DNA of 64,000 nucleotides, taken from Rhabdaerophilum calidifontis. Lineage in GTDB: Bacteria; Pseudomonadota; Alphaproteobacteria; Rhizobiales; Beijerinckiaceae. This document shows, piece by piece, positions 49,834 through 64,000 of the stretch. How positions within the stretch are numbered: the stretch's first letter is position 1; each line of letters opens with the position of its first letter. The stretch lies in assembly GCF_008641065.1 (NCBI RefSeq), contig NZ_VTRS01000001.1:186001-250000 (forward strand), given 5' to 3'. The position numbers were made by a program, and so were the translations under genes. The notes below the pieces were generated by a model that searched no databases, was not told the DNA's origin, and saw only the letters and a list, made by a program, of their open reading frames with translations.

Positions 49834-50598
49834 CTATTCGGTCCGGATCTGGATGAGCGCCGCGCCCGGCACCCGGGCGAGCGCGGCGCGCGAGCGCAGC
49901 GCCATTGCGAGGTTGCGGCCGGCGAGGCGGGAATGCTCGCGCATCAGCGCCTCGGCGCGGGCGCCCTCGCGACGGGTGATCGCGTCGACGATGCAATGAT
50001 GCTGATCCTGCGCCAGGATCAGGATCCGCCCCGCCTCGGGGCTCTCGCTCTGCGCCCGCACGAAGGCGCTCGGCGAGGCGAAGGGCAGGGACATCGCCCG
50101 CTCGATCTGGCGCTCGACGACTCGGCTCGCCGCAAGCCGCGTGATCTCGCGGTGGAAGGCGGCGTTGAGATCGATATAGAGCGTGAAGGCGTCCTCGCTC
50201 GCGGCGATCCGCGCGACCGCCTCGTCGAGCCGGGCGAGCAGATCGCGCAGCCGGTCGAGTGCGGTCGAACTCGCCCCGCGTTCGGCGGCGAGCCGCGCGG
50301 CGAGGCCCTCCAGCGTGCCGCGCAGTTCGATCGCATCGAGCACCTCACGCTCGCCGAAGGCGCGGGCGGCATAGCCGCCGGAGGGGATCGCCTCCAGCAG
50401 CCCTTCCTCCGCGAGCTTCATCAGCGCCGCCCGCACCGGAGTCCGCGACACCCCGATCCGCTCGACGATCGCGAGTTCGGCGAGCCGCTCGCCGGGCCGG
50501 ATCTCGCCGGCGAGGATCAGATCGCGCAGCATCAGTTCGGCGCGAACCGTCTGCGAGACGGCACGATCCTCCGCCAGCGGGGCGCCTGCGGTCGCCAT
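49834..50598 (-). CDS. GntR-family (FCD domain) transcriptional regulator
   Basis: 254 residues. A winged helix-turn-helix N-terminus (about 20-85; PGERLAELAIVERIGVSRTPVRAALMKLAEEGLL) is followed by the all-helical FCD ligand-binding domain with AAFHREI and a late His, the usual metal/ligand residues. The gene is sandwiched between vanA (2-base gap) and vanB (10-base gap), so the regulator is made from the operon it probably controls. Candidate sites lie upstream of vanA. Vanillate or a related aromatic acid is the likely effector by position. Confidence 0.9.
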   Translation of the reverse strand: MATAGAPLAEDRAVSQTVRAELMLRDLILAGEIRPGERLAELAIVERIGVSRTPVRAALMKLAEEGLLEAIPSGGYAARAFGEREVLDAIELRGTLEGLAARLAAERGASSTALDRLRDLLARLDEAVARIAASEDAFTLYIDLNAAFHREITRLAASRVVERQIERAMSLPFASPSAFVRAQSESPEAGRILILAQDQHHCIVDAITRREGARAEALMREHSRLAGRNLAMALRSRAALARVPGAALIQIRTE

Positions 50599-50600
50599 GC

Positions 50601-51656
50601 TCACTCCGCCGCCTGCGGCATGGCGGGGCCGCCTTGTTCGGCCTCGATCATCGAATCGATCAGCCGCCGCGCCCACATCGACCCGGAATCGATGTTGAGA
50701 TTGTAGAAGATCCGGCCGGGATTTTCCGCGATCGCGCGCTGCTGCGCCTCAAGGATCTCCTCATCCTCGCGAAAGATCGTGCTGACGCCCTCGCAGATCT
50801 GCGTGGTCAGCGCCTGGTCGCGCAGCCGGTAATTGCGGACGAAGGCCCAGAAATAATGGCAGGTTTCGTCGGTTTCCGGGGTGACCGTGTTCAGAACCAT
50901 GCCGTTGACGCCCTGGGAGCGGTCGCCCTCCGGCGCGCCGGTGCCGGCCGGTGCGACGCCGACATCGATGGCGATGGTCGCCGGCGCCTCGAAGCGGATG
51001 ATCTGCCAGCGATCGACATGGCCGGGCTTGCCGAGCTGCGCGGCCCAGAAGGGCGGCGGCTCGATGTTCCGCATCCAGCGCGTCACGGTGGCGGTGCGCT
51101 CGCCATGCGTCGTCACGAAGGGGGCCTCGGCCACGGCGTCGTTGCCGATCGAGGAGCCATGCACGAAGGTCTCGTGGGTCAGGTCCATCAGGTTGTCGAT
51201 CACGAGGCGGTATTCGCATTTGGCGTGGATCCGCTTGCCGTCCCCCTCCCATTCCGGGTCGCGGTTCCAGTGCAGGTCCGGGATCTTCGCGGGGTCCGCC
51301 AGCGCGGGATCGCCCGGCCACAGCCAGATGAAACGATGCTTCTCGACGACCGGATAGGCGCGCACGCAGGCCGAGGGGTTGATCGTCTCCTGGCTGGGCA
51401 TGAAGGTGCAGCGCCCCTGCGCGTTGAAGACCAGGCCGTGATAGGGGCAGACGACCTCGTCGCCCTTGAGATGCCCGCGCGAGAGCGGCACCAGGCGGTG
51501 CCAGCAGGCATCCGCCAGCGCCGCCACCGCGCCGTCGGCCTTCCGGTAGAGTACGATCTTCTGGTTGCAGATGGTGCGCGCGAGAAGCGCCCGCTTCACC
51601 TCGATGTCCCACGCCGCGCAATACCAGGCATTGAGCGGGAAGGCGGATGCCGACAT
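50601..51656 (-). CDS. vanA: Rieske non-haem iron oxygenase, VanA-like
   Basis: 351 residues. The Rieske cluster ligands are Cys51-x-His53 and Cys70-x2-His73, and the mononuclear iron site is in NLMDLTHETFVHG (Asp, His, His). Length and layout match vanillate O-demethylase oxygenase, which turns vanillate into protocatechuate and formaldehyde; other O-demethylase substrates are possible. Its presumed product, protocatechuate, is the substrate class of the ligAB product encoded 13 kb away. First gene of vanA-gntR-vanB; GGAGGAATACC precedes the start. Confidence 0.92.
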   Translation of the reverse strand: MSASAFPLNAWYCAAWDIEVKRALLARTICNQKIVLYRKADGAVAALADACWHRLVPLSRGHLKGDEVVCPYHGLVFNAQGRCTFMPSQETINPSACVRAYPVVEKHRFIWLWPGDPALADPAKIPDLHWNRDPEWEGDGKRIHAKCEYRLVIDNLMDLTHETFVHGSSIGNDAVAEAPFVTTHGERTATVTRWMRNIEPPPFWAAQLGKPGHVDRWQIIRFEAPATIAIDVGVAPAGTGAPEGDRSQGVNGMVLNTVTPETDETCHYFWAFVRNYRLRDQALTTQICEGVSTIFREDEEILEAQQRAIAENPGRIFYNLNIDSGSMWARRLIDSMIEAEQGGPAMPQAAE

Positions 51657-54381: not shown

Positions 54382-55257
54382 ATGAGGGAGCAACCGCGCC
54401 TGCGTTCGGTGCTTTATGTTCCGGCGGCGAATTCGCGGGCGCTTGCCAAGGCGGCCGAACTCGCCTGCGATGCCGTGATCCTAGATCTCGAGGATGCCGT
54501 GCATCCCGAGGCCAAGGCCGGGGCGCGGCTCGCCGCGCGCGCCGCCCTCGAGAGCGGCGCCTTTGCCGGCCGGTTCGTCGCGGTGCGCGTCAACGGCTTC
54601 GATGAGGCGGAGGATGGGCCGGGCTGGCTGGTCGAGGATCTGGCGGCGATTGTGCCTGCCGGGCCCGATGCCGTGCTGTTCCCGAAGATCCGGACCCGCG
54701 ACGATGCCGAGCGCGCGCAATCGGCGCTCGACCATCATTTCGCGCCGCCGGCGCTGCGCCTGTGGCTGATGATCGAGACGCCGCGGGCGGTTCTCGATAT
54801 CGCCGCGATCGCCGGGCTTGCGGGGGAGCCGGATTCCCGCCTTGCCGCCCTGGTGCTCGGCACCAACGATCTCGCCAAGGAGATGCGGCTGCCGCCGGTG
54901 CCCTCGCGGCTGCCGCTGCTGCACGCGCTCTCGGCCTGCGTGCTTGCCGCCCGGTCGCATGGCCTTGCCGTGCTCGACGGTGTCCACGCCGCGCTCGGCG
55001 ATACCGTCGGGTTCGAGGCCGAGTGCCTGCAGGGGCGCGGCCTCGGCTTCGACGGCAAGACGCTGATTCACCCCGCCCAGATCGAGCCCGCCAACCGCCT
55101 GTTCGGGCCGAGCGAAGCGGAGCTTGCAGATGCGCGCGCGCTCATCGCCGCCTTCGAGGCGCCGGAGAATGCCGGACGCGGCGTCATCGTTGTCGATGGC
55201 CGGATGGTGGAGCGCCTGCATTACGAGATGGCGCTGCGGCTCGTCGCGCTGGCCTGA
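54382..55257 (+). CDS. CitE-like HpcH/HpaI aldolase (CoA-ester lyase)
   Basis: 291 residues from an ATG after GGGAGAG. TIM-barrel motifs of the CitE/malyl-CoA lyase family: RSVLYVPAANSRAL, DAVILDLEDAVHPEAK with the Mg-binding Glu/Asp, LWLMIETPRAV with Glu, LVLGTNDLAKEM and GFDGKTLIHPAQIEPAN. Such enzymes cleave or make malyl-, citramalyl- or (3S)-3-hydroxyacyl-CoA esters; the exact one is not readable. The nearby polycarboxylate operon makes a CoA-linked hydroxyacid plausible as substrate. Confidence 0.88.
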   Translation: MREQPRLRSVLYVPAANSRALAKAAELACDAVILDLEDAVHPEAKAGARLAARAALESGAFAGRFVAVRVNGFDEAEDGPGWLVEDLAAIVPAGPDAVLFPKIRTRDDAERAQSALDHHFAPPALRLWLMIETPRAVLDIAAIAGLAGEPDSRLAALVLGTNDLAKEMRLPPVPSRLPLLHALSACVLAARSHGLAVLDGVHAALGDTVGFEAECLQGRGLGFDGKTLIHPAQIEPANRLFGPSEAELADARALIAAFEAPENAGRGVIVVDGRMVERLHYEMALRLVALA

Positions 55258-55966: not shown

Positions 55967-56689
55967 ATGCCGCGCCTGCCGCGAACCGTCGAATATTACA
56001 CCGCCCGCCGCGAGAAGCGCGAGGCCCGCTGGAACCGCGCGATCGAAACGCCGGGCGAGCGGCTGCGCGCCTGGCTCGACCTGCTGATCGTCGATCACGG
56101 CGTGCTCCGCCTCTTCCATCTCAACCGGCACCGGGTCGGGCGCCGGCTCTGGCGCTCGGCGCAGCCTTCGCCGCGGGATATCGCGCGGCTCGCGCGCGAG
56201 GGGCTGAGGACCATCGTCAATCTGCGCGGTGGGCGCGCGCATGGCGCCTGGCAGCTCGAGAAGGATGCGGCCCAGCGGCACGGCATCACGATCGTCGATC
56301 TCGTGCTGCGCTCGCGCGAGGCGCCGGACCGCGCGACCCTGCTCGCCCTGCCGGATTTCTTCGCGGGCCTCGCCTATCCCGCGCTGGCGCACTGCAAATC
56401 CGGCGCCGACCGCGCCGGGCTGTTCGCGGCGCTCTACCTGCTCGTGGTGGAAAAGGCGGAGGCAGCGCGGGCATTGCGGGAACTCAGCCTGCGCAAGGGC
56501 CATTTCCGCTACGCGCAGACCGGAATCCTCGACGCTTTCCTCGAAGCCTATCGCGACGAGGGCGAGGCGCGCGGCAAGGCGTTCATCGATTGGGTGCGCG
56601 AGGATTACGACCCCGAGGCGCTGAAGGCCCGGTTCCGGCCCCGGCCGCTCGCCAGCCTCGTCGTCGATCTCGTGCTCCGGCGCGAATAG
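55967..56689 (+). CDS. Tyrosine/dual-specificity phosphatase-like protein
   Basis: 240 residues. The P-loop HCKSGADRAG has Cys143 and Arg149 (C-x5-R), with upstream RSAQPSPRDIARLAREGLRT and VNLRGG, as in bacterial DSP/PTP-like proteins related to plant-type PFA-DSPs. The acid/base Asp is not obvious. Function unknown; divergent from ppa and convergent with the citryl-CoA-lyase-like gene, whose stop lies 1 base away. Confidence 0.83.
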   Translation: MPRLPRTVEYYTARREKREARWNRAIETPGERLRAWLDLLIVDHGVLRLFHLNRHRVGRRLWRSAQPSPRDIARLAREGLRTIVNLRGGRAHGAWQLEKDAAQRHGITIVDLVLRSREAPDRATLLALPDFFAGLAYPALAHCKSGADRAGLFAALYLLVVEKAEAARALRELSLRKGHFRYAQTGILDAFLEAYRDEGEARGKAFIDWVREDYDPEALKARFRPRPLASLVVDLVLRRE

Positions 56690-56690
56690 C

Positions 56691-57527
56691 TCAATCCCCG
56701 GGCACGGGCCGCGCCGGCGGGCCGGCATAGGCCCAGAGCCATTCCCGCGGCAGCGGGCCCTTGTTGCGCGCCGGCGCCTGCATCTGCTCCCAGGCATGGG
56801 CGAGGATACCGACCGAACGCGAGAGCACGAAGAGGCCACGCGTCAGCGGCGGGGGGAAGCCGAGTTCGCCGTAGATCACCGCGGTGGCGCCGTCGATATT
56901 GAGCGGGATTACCCGACCCTTGCGCCGCTCGAGATCGGCGCCGATCGCCTCGGCGATGGCGGCGAAACGGCCCGGAACCGTTCCGGCGGCGGCGGCGGCG
57001 TGCGCCAGCGCGAGAAGCGGCGCCGCGCGCGGATCCACCGGGTGGAAGCGGTGGCCGAAGCCGGGAACATAGCCGCCCTCCGTGGCGAGGAAACGGTCGA
57101 GCCGGGCCGTGACGGCCGCCGCAAGGCCGGCACCGGCATCCATCGCCGCCGCGATCTCGCCGAAAAAGGCCAGCGCCTGCTCGCCCGCGCCGCCATGGAT
57201 GTCGCCGAGCACGTTGATCGCCGAGGCCATGGCGGCGTTGATCCCCACGCCGCAGGTGGCGGCCATGCGCGCGATGGCGATCGAGGGCGCCTGGGGTCCG
57301 TGATCGACCGCGGCGGCCAGCGCATGGCCGAGCAGCTCCGCCTGCGCCTCCGTGGGCAATTCACCATGCAGCATCAGCCAGATCATCGCCGGGAACGAGA
57401 CATGGCCGATCAGATCCTCGATCGCATAGCCGCGCAGCCGGATCATGCCGGGGCGCATCTCGATGATGCCGGTCTCCCACCAGGCTTCGCCGCGGGCGCG
57501 GCCGGGATCGGCGGGGGGGTCCGTCAT
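56691..57527 (-). CDS. Citrate-synthase-like protein, probable citryl-CoA lyase
   Basis: 278 residues, much shorter than citrate synthase (about 430) but the length of stand-alone citryl-CoA lyase. The citrate-synthase catalytic residues are present: His111 in GDIHGGAGEQA, His159 in PGFGHRFHPVDPR and Asp212 in NIDGATAVIYGELGF. The N-terminal domain is trimmed. Such enzymes cleave citryl-CoA to acetyl-CoA and oxaloacetate or act on similar acyl-CoAs. The ATG overlaps the end of the CoA-transferase gene by four bases, the last step of the tct operon. Confidence 0.85.
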   Translation of the reverse strand: MTDPPADPGRARGEAWWETGIIEMRPGMIRLRGYAIEDLIGHVSFPAMIWLMLHGELPTEAQAELLGHALAAAVDHGPQAPSIAIARMAATCGVGINAAMASAINVLGDIHGGAGEQALAFFGEIAAAMDAGAGLAAAVTARLDRFLATEGGYVPGFGHRFHPVDPRAAPLLALAHAAAAAGTVPGRFAAIAEAIGADLERRKGRVIPLNIDGATAVIYGELGFPPPLTRGLFVLSRSVGILAHAWEQMQAPARNKGPLPREWLWAYAGPPARPVPGD

Positions 57528-58729
57528 GACAAATTCCCGCGGGGCCGCACATCGGCGAGGATCTCGCCGGAATGTTCGCCGAGCCGCGGCGGCGGCCGCA
57601 AGGGCCGGGGCGCGATGCCATCGACCAGGAAGCCGCCGCGCGTGACGCTCAGCGGCCGGTCGATGCCCGGCACCGCCTCGAACCGCGCCGTCATCGCGCG
57701 GCCGGCCACCTGGGGTTCGGCGAGGATCTCGGGGATCGAGAGGATCCGCCCGGCCGGGATGCCGCGCGCATTGAGCCGCGCCTCCCATTCGGCCGCCGGC
57801 GCTGCGGCGAGTGCGGCCTCGATCTCGGCCTTGAGCGCGAAGCGGTTGGCCTTGCGCGCCTCGCGCCCGGCGAAGCGCGGATCGGCCGCGAGGTCGGGCC
57901 GGCCGATCAGGTCGCAGAGCGCCTCGAACTGCGCCTGCTTGTTGGCGGCGATGTTGAGGAGACCGTCGGCGGCGCGGAAGGCGCCGGAGGGCGCCGCCGT
58001 CATGTTCTCGTTGCCCATCGCCTGCGGCGGGATGCCGGCGGTGAGATAGTTGGAGACCGGCCAGCCGAGCGCGCTCAGCGTGCATTCGAGCATCGACACA
58101 TCGAGCACGGCGCCGGCGCCGTGCCGTTCGCGCCGCAGCAAGGCCGCGACGATGGCGAAGGCGCCGAACAGGCCGCCGAGCGTGTCGCAGATCGGGTATC
58201 CGACGCGCAGCGGCGCCGTCTCGGGCGTGCCGGTGATGCTCATGACGCCGGAAAGCCCCTGGATGATCTGGTCATAGGCCGGGTTGGCGCGCATCGGTCC
58301 GGTCTGGCCGAAGCCGGAGATCGCGCAATAGACGAGATCGGGGCGCACGGCCCGCAGCGCCTCGGGGCCGAGGCCGAGCCGCTCCATCACGCCGGGGCGG
58401 AAATTCTCGACGAGTGCGTCGGCGGTCGCGACGAGGGCGAGGAAATCGGCGCGACCCTCCGGCGTCTTGAGATCGAGCGCGACGGAGCGTTTGCCCGCGT
58501 TCTGCGCGAGGAACGAGGCGCCCATCCCGGCCGCGTTCAGTTCCGGCGCGGCGCCGAGCTGGCGGGCGAGGTCGCCGCCCTCCGGCGCCTCGACCTTGAT
58601 GACATCGGCGCCGAGCAGCGCGAGCTGGTAGGCGCAATAGGGGCCGGCCAGCACATTGGTGAGATCGAGCACGCGATAGCCGGCGAGCAGGGCCAGTGCG
58701 GGCGCCGGATCAGGCATCGCCGGGGACAT
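57524..58729 (-). CDS. CaiB/BaiF-type (family III) CoA-transferase
   Basis: 401 residues. It begins [31 protein letters not shown], the family opening, with [13 protein letters not shown] carrying the catalytic Asp153 equivalent, [14 protein letters not shown] and [10 protein letters not shown]. It moves CoA between acyl groups. The start overlaps the tctA end by 20 bases (or 8 bases from MPDPAP at 58717); no clear ribosome-binding site, so translation is probably coupled. By position it would activate the imported carboxylate. Confidence 0.92.
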
Positions 58730-60227
58730 GGTCGGGCTTGGGGTTCCGGTTCCGGAAGAACATGTGCAGCTTCGGGCCGAGCAGCAGGATCAGGGTGAGC
58801 GCGAGCAGGCTCGCCGAGAGCGGCCGCGTGAGGAAGGTCGACCAATCGCCGTTCGAGATCGTCATGGCCTGGCGGAAATTGGTTTCCGCCATCGGGCCGA
58901 GGATCATGCCGATGATCACCGGGGCGGTGGGAAAGTCGAACTTGCGCATGAAGAAGCCCATGATCCCGATGAGATAGAGCAGGATCAGGTCGATGACCGA
59001 GCGCGAGATGCCGTAGCTGCCGATCGTCGCGAAGATCAGGATGCCGCCATAGAGCAGCGGCGCCGGGATCTTCAGCATCTTCACCCAGAGCCCCACCAGC
59101 GGCAGGTTGAGCACCAACAGCATCACGTTGCCGACATAGAGCGAGGCGATCAGCCCCCAGACGAGCTGCGGGTTGCTCTCCAGCAGCTGCGGGCCGGGAT
59201 TGATGCCGTAGCTCTGGAAGGCGGAGAGCATGATCGCGGCGGTTGCCGAGGTCGGAAGGCCCAGGGCGAGCATCGGCACCAGCACGCCGGCGGCGGAGGC
59301 GTTGTTGGCCGCCTCCGGGCCGGCCACGCCCTCGATCGCGCCATGGCCGAATTCCTCCGGCTTCGGCGAGAGCTTCTTTTCGAGCGAATAGGAGAAGAAG
59401 GTCGGGATCTCGGCGCCGCCCGCCGGCATCGCGCCGATGGGGAAGCCGATCAGCGAGCCGCGGATCCATGGCTTCCAGGAGCGTGCCCAATCCTCGCGGC
59501 TCATCCAGATCGAATCCTTGATGTCGAGAACCTCGTCCCTGACCTTCGGCTGCGCGGCGAGCCAGAGCGTCTCGCCGATCGCGAACAGCCCGACCGCGAC
59601 GATGATGACGTTGATCCCGTCATAAAGCTCGGTGATCCCGAAGGCGAAGCGGATCTGGCCCGATTGGTTGTCGACGCCGATCATGCCGAGGAACATGCCG
59701 ATGAAGAGTGCCGTCAGCCCGCGCACTGCCGAATTGCCGAGCACCGCCGAGACGGTGACGAAGCACAGGACCATCAGCGAGAAATAATCGGCCGGGCCGA
59801 ATTTCAGCGCGAAATCCACGACCGGACCGGCGAGGAAGGTGATGCCGATCGTCCCGATCGTGCCCGCGACGAAGGAGCCGATCGCGGCGGTGGCGAGCGC
59901 AGCGCCGGCGCGGCCGCGCTTCGCCATGCGGTTGCCCTCGAGCGCGGTGACGATCGTCGCGCTTTCCCCCGGCGTGTTGAGCAGGATCGAGGTCGTCGAG
60001 CCGCCATACATCGCGCCGTAATAGATGCCGGCGAACAGGATGAAGGCGGCGGTGGGGTCGACCTTGGTGGTGATCGGCAGCAGCAATGCGATGGTCAGGG
60101 CCGGGCCGAGGCCGGGCAGCACGCCAATCGCGGTGCCGACCGCCACGCCGATCAGCGCCCACATCAGGTTGATCGGCGTCAGGGCCACGGCAAAGCCTTG
60201 CGCGAGATGGCCCAGCGTTTCCATCAC
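58710..60227 (-). CDS. tctA: Tripartite tricarboxylate transporter large permease
   Basis: 505 residues with about twelve membrane segments. The family motif [60 protein letters not shown] and GALIAGFP-like [28 protein letters not shown] are clear. TctA is the channel part of the TctABC secondary transporters that use a periplasmic binding protein. Overlaps tctB by four bases and caiB by 20. Confidence 0.95.
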
Positions 60228-60721
60228 AGGAACCTTTCGATGATCCCGGAGCCGATCTGGTAGCCGAGCACGCGGTCGAATCCGATATAGGCGACGATGG
60301 TCAGCACGAGGCCGAACGCGAGATCACGCAGGAACCGGCGGCTGCCGAAGGCGCGCGCCGTGCAGGCGAACAGGATCGTCGAGGCGATGATGAAGCCCAT
60401 CCGCGGCAGGATCACCGTCTCGCCGATGCTCAGCCCGTCGATCAGCAGCAGGTTCGCGGCGAGGCCCGTGCCGAGCCAGAGGATGCCCGGAAGATCGAGC
60501 ACCGTGCCCTCGTCATGCTCCCATCCGCCCCGCAATCCCTCGATCGTCAGCAGCGCGCCGAGCGCGGCAAGCCCGGCGGTGATCGCCCAGGGGAAGGCGG
60601 CCGGGCTGATCCGGGCATAGGTCGATTGCGGGATGGCGGCCGTGGCCCAGCCGACCAGGGCCGCGAGCGCAAGAACCCCGAGCCCGACAAAGAGCTCGGG
60701 GAGGGCGGGGCGGATCGTCAT
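60224..60721 (-). CDS. tctB: Tripartite tricarboxylate transporter small permease
   Basis: 165 residues with four membrane segments (about 10-28, 43-60, 82-100 and 105-160 as two close ones), the TctB size and topology. Sequence is poorly conserved in this family, and identification rests on position between tctC (3-base gap) and tctA (4-base overlap) plus topology. Confidence 0.88.
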
Positions 60722-60724
60722 GGC

Positions 60725-61699
60725 TCAGCTCGCAAGCCCGAGATCCTTGAGGATGCCGGTAATGCGCGTGACCTCGGATTCGATGTATTTCCCGAAACCG
60801 TCACCGGAGAGGTAAATCCCCGTCCAGTCGCGTTTCGCGAGTTCGGCCTTCCAGCCGGCGCTGGCATTGAGCTTGTCGAACAGCCCGATCAGTGCTGCCT
60901 GCTGCTCCTTGGTGATGCCCGGCGCGCCGAACACGCCGCGCCAGTTGAACAGCTCGACATCGACCCCCTCCTCCTTCAGCGTCGGGGCGTCGATGCCCTG
61001 CTGGCGCTTGTCGGCCGAGAGCGCGAGCACGCGCAGCTTGCCCGCCTTCACCTGTTCGGCGAATTCGCCGTAGCCCGAGACGCCGCAGGAAACCTGGTTG
61101 CCGAGCAGCGCCGCCACGGCCGGGCCGCCGCCGGCGAAGGCAACATAGGCGACCTTCTTCGGATCGACGCCGACCGCCTTGGCGATCATGCCCGCGAGGA
61201 TGTGGTCGGTGCCGCCGGCCGATCCGCCGGCCCAGGAGACCTTCGCCGGGTCGGCCTTGAACGCGGCGACGAGGTCCTTCATCGTCTTGAACGGGCTCGC
61301 CGCCGGCACGACGATCGCCTCGAACTCGCCTGTCAGGCGGGCGATCGGCGGCAGGTCCGTCAGCTTGAGCGGCGCCTTGTTGGCGATGATCGCGCCGACC
61401 ATCACCATGCCGCCGACCATCACCGCGTTGGGTTGGCCCTTCTTCGAGGACATGAATTTCGGCAGGCCGACGACGCCGCCGGCGCCCGGCGCGTGCTCGA
61501 ACTGGAAGCTCTCCATGATCTTCTCGGCGCGCATCACCTGCTCGATGGCCCGCCCGGTGCCGTCCCAGCCGCCGCCGGGCGCGGCGGGCACGAAGATCTG
61601 GAGGCTCTGGAGCGCCTGGGCCTCGGCGCGGCTGAACGGCAGCATCGCCGCGCCGCCGAGCGCGAGCGAGGTGGTGAGCAGGGTGCGGCGGTTCAGCAT
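60725..61699 (-). CDS. tctC: Tripartite tricarboxylate transporter substrate-binding protein
   Basis: 324 residues from MLNRRTLLTTSLALGGAAML, with GGGAGGACATC upstream. The twin-Arg N-terminus and A-x-A site (SRAEAQA) suggest Tat or Sec export. Bug/TctC features: IFVPAAPGGGWDGTGRAIEQ and HAPGAGGVVGLPKF, loops that bind carboxylates. First gene of the operon. The 95-base gap upstream holds a -10-like TATAGT near 61757-61762 without a convincing -35. Confidence 0.95.
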   Translation of the reverse strand: MLNRRTLLTTSLALGGAAMLPFSRAEAQALQSLQIFVPAAPGGGWDGTGRAIEQVMRAEKIMESFQFEHAPGAGGVVGLPKFMSSKKGQPNAVMVGGMVMVGAIIANKAPLKLTDLPPIARLTGEFEAIVVPAASPFKTMKDLVAAFKADPAKVSWAGGSAGGTDHILAGMIAKAVGVDPKKVAYVAFAGGGPAVAALLGNQVSCGVSGYGEFAEQVKAGKLRVLALSADKRQQGIDAPTLKEEGVDVELFNWRGVFGAPGITKEQQAALIGLFDKLNASAGWKAELAKRDWTGIYLSGDGFGKYIESEVTRITGILKDLGLAS

Positions 61700-61794
61700 G
61701 ATGTCCTCCCGGATGTCTTTTACGGCGAAGGGCCGTCCGGCCTTCAGGCCGAGCCAGACTATACGTGGCGAATTTTTGGCCGCGCCGCAACCGG

Positions 61795-62871
61795 CTACTC
61801 GCCGGCCGGGCTCCGTTCGATCGCTTTCGCCCATTCGCGCAGGAAGCGGATGCGGCGGGCCCTGTCCTGCATCGGCAACAGGCCGGGGCCGATGACGATC
61901 GGCCGGATGTTGCCGGCGTCGAGCACGGGGGCGGCGGCCTCGACGCCTTCCGGAACCGCGCCGCTGACATCGAAGAAGAAGGCTTCCTCGCGCACCACCT
62001 TCTGCCCCCGTGGCGAGAGCAGGAAATCGAGGAAGCGCCGCGCAAGCGCCGGTTCACCCCCGCGGACTGGGATCATCGCGCCGCGGCTGAGGACGAGGAC
62101 GTAATCCTCCGGCAGCACGATGCCGATCGGCGCGCCCTGGCGTTGCGCGGCATAGGCATAGGAGCCGAGGAGATTGTAGGCGAGGTGCAGGCGGCCTTCG
62201 GCGAGTTCCTGGATCAGGTCGCCGCTGCAGCAGCGGGTCACGAGGTTCAGGCGGCCGAATCCCTCGATCAGCCGGCCATAGACCAGAGCGTTGCGGGCGT
62301 CGAAGGCTGCGAACAGGTAACCGATGCCCGAGCGCGCGATGTCATAGCCGCCGATGCGCCCGGCAAGCCGCACGGGCTGCTCGCGCATCAGCTCGATCAG
62401 CGCCAGGCGGGTGCGCGGCACTTCCTCCCGCGCCATCAGCGCGCGATTGTAGACGATCACCGCCGGTTCGAAGGTGAAGCCGAAGATCTCGTCGCGCCAG
62501 CGCGTCCAGGCCGGCGCGGCCAGCGTTTCGGCCGAGCGATGCGCGCGCGCGCAGCCTTCGTTCGCCAGCACGACGAGATGGTCGACCGAGGAGGTGATGA
62601 CCAGATCGGCGTTCCGCCGCCCGTCGGCGCATTCCTGGCGCACGCGCTCGAACAGCGTGTTGGTCACCATCTCGCGATAACGGATCGTCACATCCGGCTC
62701 TTCGCGCTGGAAGGCGAGGATCAGCGGCTGGAACGCCGCGAGATCCGTGGCGGTGTCGAGGGTCAGGACATGCCGTTCGGTTCCCGGCGCCGTGAAGATC
62801 GTGACATCCTCGCCCGCCGCGGCGGTCGGGGCGGCGAGCAGGGCCAGCAGCAGGAGCATGCGCCGCATCAT
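61795..62871 (-). CDS. Periplasmic binding protein linked to the sensor kinase (PgtC-like)
   Basis: 358 residues with a signal peptide MMRRMLLLLALLAAPTAAAG. The mature part has the ABC-type iron/phosphoglycerate-binding-protein fold (VTIFTAPGTERHVL, ADLVITSSVDHLV, FEPAVIVYNRALM, LLSPRGQKVV). No transporter genes sit next to it; it overlaps the sensor-kinase gene by four bases, as PgtC-type regulatory binding proteins do. It therefore probably presents a ligand to the kinase rather than feeding a transporter. Its stop lies 95 bases before the tctC start. Confidence 0.83.
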   Translation of the reverse strand: MMRRMLLLLALLAAPTAAAGEDVTIFTAPGTERHVLTLDTATDLAAFQPLILAFQREEPDVTIRYREMVTNTLFERVRQECADGRRNADLVITSSVDHLVVLANEGCARAHRSAETLAAPAWTRWRDEIFGFTFEPAVIVYNRALMAREEVPRTRLALIELMREQPVRLAGRIGGYDIARSGIGYLFAAFDARNALVYGRLIEGFGRLNLVTRCCSGDLIQELAEGRLHLAYNLLGSYAYAAQRQGAPIGIVLPEDYVLVLSRGAMIPVRGGEPALARRFLDFLLSPRGQKVVREEAFFFDVSGAVPEGVEAAAPVLDAGNIRPIVIGPGLLPMQDRARRIRFLREWAKAIERSPAGE

Positions 62872-64000
62872 GCCGCGGCCTCCGCAAGACGGAGCGGAAC
62901 GGTTCCGGCCTCGGCGAGCGGAAAGGCGAGCAGCACGGCGAAATGCCCGTCGGCACGACGCGCGAAGCCGAGCGTGCCGCCATGGGCGGCCATCACATCG
63001 GCGGCGATGGCGAGGCCGAGGCCGGAGCCGGCCGGCTCGACGCCGAGCCGCGTGAAGGGCTTGACGACTTCCGGCCAGGATTCCGGCGGGATGCCCGGCC
63101 CGTCATCGGCGATCTCGACGAGGGCGCGGCCGGCCTCGGCCCGGATCCGCGCCGCGATCAGCCCCGGCGCGCCGTGACGGACGGCGTTGTGGACGAGATT
63201 GCCGATCACCTCGCGGATCGAGACGGGATCGCCCATCACGACCAGGCTTTCCGTCTCCGCCTCGAAGCCCACCCGGATGTCGCGGTCGAGCGAGAGCGGG
63301 ACGGTTTCCGCCAGCGCGGCGCGGACGAGCGGGACGAGATCGACCGGCGTCAGCGCCACCACCTCGCGGCGATGGATCACCATGGCATGGTTGAGAAGCT
63401 GGCTCGTCAGCCGGCCGAGCTGCTCGGCGCGCTCGCGGATGCGCGCGATCTGGGCGCGGCGGAGATCGGCGCGCGTCTCGGCCGAGAGCAGGTCGATCTG
63501 CGCCAGCAGGGCGGTCAGCGGCGTGCGCATCTGGTGCGCGGCATCGGCGATGAAACGCTCCATGCCGCCGATCCGCGCGGCGAGCCGGCCGAGAAAATGA
63601 TTGATGGAGGCGATCAGCGTGCCGATCTCGCGCGGCGCCGCAATCGCGACGGGACGCAGATCCTTCGGATCACGCGCGGCGATTGCCGATTCGACCTGGC
63701 TCAGCGGGCGCAGCGCGAGGCGCACCGCCACCACCAGCGCGACGAGCGCCAGCAGGCTCATCCCGAGCACCAGCAGCACGGATTTCAGTGTCAGATCGCG
63801 CGCGAGGGCGAGACGCGCGAGCCGCGTCTGTGCCACGCTCACCTCCACCCAGCCGGCAATGCCCGGCCCGGTGACGTAGCGGCCGAGGGTGACGATGCGC
63901 ACGGGAAAGCCGCGATAGCGGGCATCGGCCATCACCGGCATCCGCCCCAGCGGCGTGCCGTCGAGCGCGGAGACGAGGTCCTCCTGACCGGTGAGATGCG
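62868..64000 (-). CDS. tctE: TctE-like sensor histidine kinase (5' end missing)
   Basis: 378 codons are visible; the frame is open through the right edge and continues upstream with HLTGQEDLVSALDGTPLGRM, a periplasmic sensor segment. After a periplasmic part come a membrane helix (LKSVLLVLGMSLLALVALVVAV), a HAMP-like linker, the phospho-acceptor His in AAHQMRTPLTALLAQIDLL, N-box NLVHNAVRHG and G-boxes DDGPGIP and GSGLGLAI. This is the layout of TctE-like kinases controlling Tct transporters. The response regulator is expected just outside the window. Confidence 0.92.
   Translation of the reverse strand, partial: HLTGQEDLVSALDGTPLGRMPVMADARYRGFPVRIVTLGRYVTGPGIAGWVEVSVAQTRLARLALARDLTLKSVLLVLGMSLLALVALVVAVRLALRPLSQVESAIAARDPKDLRPVAIAAPREIGTLIASINHFLGRLAARIGGMERFIADAAHQMRTPLTALLAQIDLLSAETRADLRRAQIARIRERAEQLGRLTSQLLNHAMVIHRREVVALTPVDLVPLVRAALAETVPLSLDRDIRVGFEAETESLVVMGDPVSIREVIGNLVHNAVRHGAPGLIAARIRAEAGRALVEIADDGPGIPPESWPEVVKPFTRLGVEPAGSGLGLAIAADVMAAHGGTLGFARRADGHFAVLLAFPLAEAGTVPLRLAEAAA

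Follow-up and report, generated by a model that had tools for sequence, protein, structure and literature searches.

The organic-acid operon of Rhabdaerophilum calidifontis

We analysed a 64,000-nt stretch of the Rhabdaerophilum calidifontis genome (the window) and focused on its last seven genes, an organic-acid operon with a sensor unit upstream of it, on the minus strand at 56691-64000. In transcription order these encode a TctE-like sensor kinase, a lone periplasmic solute-binding protein (SBP), the transporter subunits TctC, TctB and TctA, a CaiB-type CoA-transferase and a short citrate-synthase homologue referred to below as the lyase (Table 1). Every gene named in the initial annotation was located and carried the matching Pfam domains. 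The kinase and lone SBP genes overlap by 4 nt, as had been stated. The end-to-end overlap claimed for the five genes behind them was seen at tctB/tctA (4 nt), tctA/caiB (20 nt, or 8 nt if CaiB initiates at the second in-frame ATG) and caiB/lyase (4 nt), whereas tctC and tctB are separated by a 3-nt gap. The longest tctC reading frame starts at 61834, inside the lone SBP gene. A signal-peptide-like N-terminus and a GGGAGGA ribosome-binding site just upstream make 61699 the likely start, which leaves a 95-nt gap between the end of the SBP gene and tctC. As the initial annotation proposed, a single unit encodes import, CoA transfer and cleavage. Within 56000-64000, neither promoter-like sites (0 vs 0.4 in shuffles) nor terminator-like sites (2 vs 2.4) exceeded shuffled sequence, and a conserved promoter before tctC was discarded as a candidate since the upstream region had no visible alignment to those of the congeners.

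Table 1. Genes of the operon, its sensor unit and the second transporter beyond the window end
Feature	Position	Strand	Evidence and remarks
Sensor histidine kinase, TctE-like	62868 to beyond 64000	-	PF08521 (2CSK_N), HAMP, PF00512 (HisKA), PF02518 (HATPase_c); N-terminus beyond the window, frame continues in L204
Lone periplasmic SBP of the SBP_bac_11 type, presumed to partner the kinase in sensing	61795..62871	-	PF13531; beside the kinase in 4/5 congeners
tctC, binding protein of the tripartite tricarboxylate transporter (TTT) family	60725..61699	-	PF03401, 95 bits vs cut-off 27
tctB, small membrane subunit	60224..60721	-	PF07331, 53 bits vs cut-off 29
tctA, large membrane subunit	58710..60227	-	PF01970, 524 bits
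caiB, family III CoA-transferase; proposed to place CoA on the imported tricarboxylate	57524..58729	-	PF02515, 401 bits
Short citrate-synthase homologue, citryl-CoA lyase group; proposed to cleave the CoA ester	56691..57527	-	PF00285; NF004864, 424 vs 261; 6hxp
Second tctCBA (tctCBA-2)	L002:1228-4332, just upstream of the window end	divergent from the response regulator	

The lyase has 278 residues and passed the NCBIfam model NF004864 (PRK06224.1-1, 'citryl-CoA lyase') with 424 bits against a cut-off of 261, which places the short citrate-synthase homologue of the initial annotation in the citryl-CoA lyase group. Its closest solved protein is 6hxp (1e-39), deposited as 'Citryl-CoA lyase'. Residues H76, H111, H159, R160, R167, D212, R237 and R254 were identical in all 81 rows of the lyase family; the HR, DPR, NID and SR motifs align onto the single ordinary citrate synthase that the genome encodes, and the DHG and HGG motifs align onto 6hxp. 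We take the invariant residues to be the catalytic His/His/Asp and the substrate arginines of citrate synthase. The protein is therefore predicted to act on citryl-CoA or a related CoA ester, under a family name transferred from its relatives. CaiB is a full-length family III (CaiB/BaiF) CoA-transferase, with residues 15-387 covering positions 1-366 of the Pfam profile. TctA, TctB and TctC are encoded together and all score above their Pfam cut-offs, as expected of a TTT system. The ligands of this transporter family vary, according to the available part of PMC8102459. Naming the TctC ligand from solved relatives was tried and was not decisive, since 4x9t, Bug27 and others carry varied names.

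Conservation of the caiB-lyase pair and its joining to the transporter

Relatives of the lyase were encoded in at least 494 stretches of a one-genome-per-species collection, and for this group we found no test of the name 'citryl-CoA lyase'. The best 80 loci were kept for comparison; L051 lacked an anchor and was left out, giving 79 anchored loci. A CaiB-type gene lay within two genes of the lyase gene in 78 of the 79, directly before it in 75, and L047 was without it. The called frames of the two genes overlapped in 37 of the 75 directly adjacent loci, as judged by a home-made codon-usage caller that may err in starts, overlaps and small genes. Around the pair, an IclR-type cluster occurred in 41 anchored loci (identity confirmed by Pfam on two cluster members), TctC-type proteins in 40 and TctA in 32; such cluster names rest on similarity to few members, except for those sent to Pfam or NCBIfam. 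Other loci carried DASS, ABC, MFS or TRAP transporters. These results show that the caiB-lyase pair is a conserved core to which variable transporters are attached. The search for the five-gene order elsewhere, which the initial annotation had proposed, recovered tctC-tctB-tctA-caiB-lyase with the window's transporter type in 7 of the 80 loci (L003-L008, L013), so that the arrangement is not a chance one and the operon is real. The same order with other TTT types was present in Vibrionaceae, Roseibium, Ruegeria and G072.

Lyases above the cut-off were found in 7 of 149 genomes of the window's taxonomic family and in 3 of 6 within the genus. A concatenated caiB-lyase tree of 81 rows, from which loci without a long CaiB were left out, placed the three congeneric pairs in three clades: the window pair grouped with Mesorhizobium and a Rhodobacteraceae genome (99), the G026 (= L073) pair with Rhodoplanes (98) and the G094 pair with Bradyrhizobium (94). 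Approximately unbiased (AU) tests rejected a grouping of the window with L073 (p 5.5e-44), of the window with L124 (1.5e-4) and of all three (6e-10), with the qualification that the groups were defined once the tree was already known, that it was a quick tree and that the letter make-up of the window was flagged as unusual. Inheritance of the pair by the window and its congeners from one ancestor was rejected on these tests. The transporter of the window and G026 is the genus's own, its TctA and TctC falling into clades with those of G117 and G137 (support 99-100, in quick trees without bootstrap that gave long-branch warnings). G117, G137, G094 and G065 keep this native transporter without an adjacent caiB-lyase pair, and G117 and G137 have a distant CaiB paralogue (32%) some kilobases away.

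The order of the joined genes differs between the two genomes, being caiB-lyase-tctCBA with a divergent IclR gene in G026 and tctCBA-caiB-lyase in the window. In the window genome the former flank of the transporter persists without it (L155), and the transporter seems to have been relocated within this genome. A tree of this transporter type with 32 rows, of which 11 were linked to the pair, required at least four changes between the linked and unlinked states, also after three rows near contig ends were dropped; the labels were assigned by us, and the count does not separate gain from loss. The same transporter type mostly stands alone in other Alphaproteobacteria: among 20 class-level loci fetched for it, some of them cut by contig ends, one (L190) was linked to caiB-lyase. 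If the importer did not supply the substrate of the pair, it would be surprising that separately acquired pairs joined one transporter in differing gene orders, and we regard this as good evidence, drawn from gene arrangement, that importer and enzymes work together. This repeated joining is also a case where the assembly of an operon predicts its function.

Proposed substrate and chemistry of the pair

Our preferred reading, to which we give about an even chance, is that the operon imports citrate or a very close tricarboxylate and cleaves it through its CoA ester. TctABC would import the tricarboxylate, CaiB would transfer CoA onto it from acetyl-CoA or succinyl-CoA, and the lyase would reverse a citrate-synthase-type condensation. 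The ester would thereby be split into acetyl-CoA and a dicarboxylic keto acid, which for citrate would be oxaloacetate. If acetyl-CoA donates the CoA, citrate would on balance become oxaloacetate and acetate, the same outcome as with citrate lyase but reached on free CoA by two small proteins, where citrate lyase uses the CitDEF complex with its acyl carrier. Other bacteria may feed the pair through added steps by aconitase, a PrpF-like isomerase or a TcuA-like dehydrogenase. We infer both reactions, the CoA donor and the substrate; citrate is favoured for simplicity, since many relatives carry this importer by itself, as expected of one for a common metabolite, and since one operon contains an aconitase gene.

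That aconitase gene lies at L012:7381-10011 in Aurantimonas endophytica, between caiB and the lyase gene with frames overlapping both, and encodes a full AcnA enzyme (TIGR01341, 1071 bits vs 945) that stays under the AcnD model (830 vs cut-off 1420). The Alkalilacustris locus (L022) has, between tctC and caiB, a gene whose product resembles 4-oxalomesaconate tautomerase and PrpF but stays under both cut-offs (243 and 218 vs 440 and 441). L033 carries TcuA (673 vs 369) and TcuB about 3 kb from caiB, the latter scoring 353 vs 247 for TIGR02484 and 383 vs 524 for NF011607. TcuA-like genes just under the cut-off of 369 (358 and 350) follow the pair in Azospirillum and Agrobacterium (L087, L093), and the Agrobacterium locus (L093) also carries acnA. 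A DcuS/DpiB-like kinase was found in Vibrionaceae and a Desulfuromonas genome, mostly with a DpiA-like regulator (one member typed, under the cut-offs), and acetate kinase and phosphate acetyltransferase genes adjoin the pair in Ruegeria (L090). The aconitase, PrpF-like and TcuA/B genes that lie within or close to operons of these relatives agree with the initial annotation's suggestion of a substrate such as citrate or a related acid.

Several observations weigh against this reading. Matches to aconitase, PrpF, TcuA or TcuB were confined to 6 of 94 loci (L012, L022, L033, L065, L087, L093), a count that leaves out a weak TcuA-like match at the edge of L125. Because L073 and L129 cover one and the same genomic place, the 94 loci represent 93 places. 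Against 0 of 24 transporter control loci (0.38 Mb, one of which, L190, itself carries caiB-lyase), the 6 of 94 (1.70 Mb) was not a significant difference; as substrate evidence, more weight falls on the fact that the aconitase and PrpF-like genes lie within operons. CaiB is distant in L012, L022, L063, L087 and L093 (31-39% to the window's CaiB), and the models leave its acceptor open in the window, because CaiB reached no named-substrate NCBIfam model (best NF052585, 310 vs cut-off 750). Genes of other kinds also lie near the pair, namely quinate/shikimate genes, a thiamine pyrophosphate (TPP) enzyme and aldehyde dehydrogenase (L039, L075), RraA and 2-hydroxyacid dehydrogenase (L049) and gentisate-like genes (L091). 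An aerobe that has citrate synthase could oxidise citrate in the tricarboxylic acid cycle, and without regulation the pair and citrate synthase would undo each other's work in a futile cycle.

The need of an aerobe for a CoA route would be better explained by a citrate analogue that is not a substrate of aconitase. Candidates are citramalate, which would yield acetyl-CoA and pyruvate, 2-methylcitrate, which would yield propionyl-CoA and oxaloacetate, as well as homocitrate and an acid derived from oxalocitramalate. Genes resembling PrpF and 4-oxalomesaconate tautomerase, the LigK-related RraA-type gene (136 vs 179), Amidohydro_2 and the shikimate contexts likewise suggest branched hydroxy-polycarboxylates as end products. 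However, the conserved lyase arginines, which in citrate synthase presumably hold the second carboxylate, fit oxaloacetate better than pyruvate, the aconitase of the L012 operon passes AcnA and not AcnD, and no itaconate or citramalate gene was named in the annotated regions read, where no search aimed at them was made. We consider such an analogue rather unlikely. We judge it improbable that the lyase-like protein catalyses synthesis instead of cleavage, or that it is a citrate-synthase relative without lyase activity, with CaiB serving an unrelated acid. The transfer of family names between proteins leaves room for this, but the nearest solved relative, 6hxp, was deposited as a citryl-CoA lyase and a CaiB gene accompanies the lyase gene almost everywhere; moreover, the precedent for misnaming, the CitE-like protein Rv2498c, has a different fold. 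Rv2498c was first named a citryl-CoA lyase and did not cleave citryl-CoA, as given in the available part of PMC6689899.

Compared with known systems, citrate or tricarboxylate cleavage by this pair would combine familiar parts. The route of citryl-CoA synthetase, an ATP-using enzyme, and citryl-CoA lyase also has a stand-alone short citrate-synthase-like lyase that acts on a free CoA ester, and 6hxp is the nearest solved relative of the window's lyase. There the CoA ester is made by the synthetase (PMC9768450, available part), and here presumably by the CaiB-type transferase. The window's pair is instead tied to an importer and looks catabolic. The CitDEF citrate lyase shares the logic of a transferase, CitF, that makes a citryl thioester and a lyase, CitE, that splits it, but it uses an acyl carrier where the window operon would use CoA and enzymes of other families. 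The genome had no match to the CitF alpha subunit, for which 3 of 14 control genomes, including E. coli, were positive, in line with the claim that citrate lyase is avoided. By analogy the pair resembles a citrate lyase that runs on CoA, and citrate cleavage through citryl thioesters is already known. The RipABC and Ict-Ich-Ccl systems for itaconate and citramalate degradation likewise place a CoA-transferase before a C-C lyase; their lyase has the HpcH/HpaI fold, whereas that of the window has another fold and its operon is without a hydratase. The TctABC/TctDE citrate uptake systems of Salmonella, Bordetella and Advenella share the TTT transporter and a TctD/TctE-type two-component system, and differ in that the regulator next to the window's kinase stays under the TctD cut-off, that an extra lone SBP is present and that the sensor pairs with another tctCBA in the congeners.

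No study of the caiB-lyase pair was found in the full-text literature searched, a body short of most subscription papers; an expression table of a Polynucleobacter paper includes a 'citryl-CoA lyase', which the available part of that paper does not study further, and the available parts of PMC12290011 and PMC11837527 had no bearing on the pair. The initial statement that no established pathway is known to have this exact gene set stands for the literature searched, while the gene pair itself is widespread and is already auto-annotated in database records as CoA transferase and citryl-CoA lyase. As far as could be seen, the parts belong to known families and the combination of a citryl-CoA lyase fed by a CoA-transferase is undescribed. 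Somewhat less probable than our reading of the operon, and put forward tentatively, is the wider view that the pair is an additional biological means of splitting citrate, a two-protein citrate lyase free of an acyl carrier and a plug-in found across Proteobacteria that has repeatedly joined different importers and enzymes that convert aconitate or tricarballylate. If the pair does cleave citrate or aconitate-derived acids, it would be an extra route that metabolic models may miss, would matter for what becomes of plant and plankton organic acids, and would offer a two-protein tool for turning citrate into acetyl-CoA and oxaloacetate.

Some gene contexts of the pair recurred in groups of loci. 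In five loci of Aromatoleum, Thiobacillus, Thauera and Azoarcus (L039, L053, L075, L077, L088), the pair stands among split QuiC-like and 3-dehydroquinase genes together with a TPP enzyme gene and in most cases one for an aldehyde dehydrogenase; a ring-cleavage product could be turned into a citrate-like acid there. An RraA-type gene lies near the pair in L049, L058, L062 (Halomonas), L009, L010 and L031, with a D-2-hydroxyacid dehydrogenase gene in five of the six. Amidohydro_2 genes directly follow the lyase gene at L043:10840-11889 (Bradyrhizobium) and L086:6840-7883 (Methylobacterium). Near the lyase gene of L027, L032, L048 and L082 is an SMP-30/gluconolactonase-like gene (one member typed), and perhaps a lactone is opened first in these loci.

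The sensor unit and neighbouring genes

Beyond the window end, the kinase frame reaches an OmpR-type response regulator, from which the second transporter, tctCBA-2, diverges. This regulator missed the TctD equivalog model (225 vs cut-off 337). The regulator-kinase-lone SBP unit is likewise divergent from tctCBA-2 in four of five congeners (G117, G026, G065, G137), where neither the window's transporter nor caiB-lyase stands behind the SBP gene; G094 has no close lone SBP. Among the six genus genomes examined, the caiB-lyase operon lies behind the SBP gene solely in the window genome. Because the unit stands divergent from tctCBA-2 in these congeners, tctCBA-2 was probably the sensor's original target, and the sensor was probably not built for the caiB-lyase operon. 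A sensor dedicated to that operon was discarded on this synteny, and the matching sensor proposed in the initial annotation is accordingly doubtful.

Regulation in the present arrangement is a separate question, and the operon may be co-transcribed with the sensor unit by read-through. That the unit senses the imported acid and switches on tctCBA-caiB-lyase in this way is possible, with our judgement leaning against it. Only 95 nt separate the end of the SBP gene from tctC, which shares its strand, and the gap holds no terminator-like site. Related kinase, regulator and SBP genes adjoin caiB-lyase in Thalassospira (L016, L017, L019, L029), Roseibium (L065) and G072/L126, and Ruegeria L090 has a kinase and a regulator beside the pair. 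On the other hand, the four congeners keep the unit beside tctCBA-2 without caiB-lyase, and the transporter has apparently moved in the window genome, where L155 retains its former flank without it. TctE-TctC signalling is described for TTT systems in the available part of PMC8102459, whereas that of PMC11113362 reports a case in which neighbouring SBP and kinase genes are not linked, so that such neighbours do not always belong together.

Near the operon, the plus strand carries a CitE/RipC-like HpcH/HpaI lyase gene at 54382-55257. It was rejected as a member of the system, as its product scored under the CitE (144 vs 443) and RipC (NF038242, 133 vs 375) cut-offs and no HpcH match above 60 bits was listed for any of the 80 lyase loci. 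On the minus strand at 49834-51656, a Rieske-type oxygenase-like gene adjoins a GntR-like regulator gene, both judged by eye from their translations.

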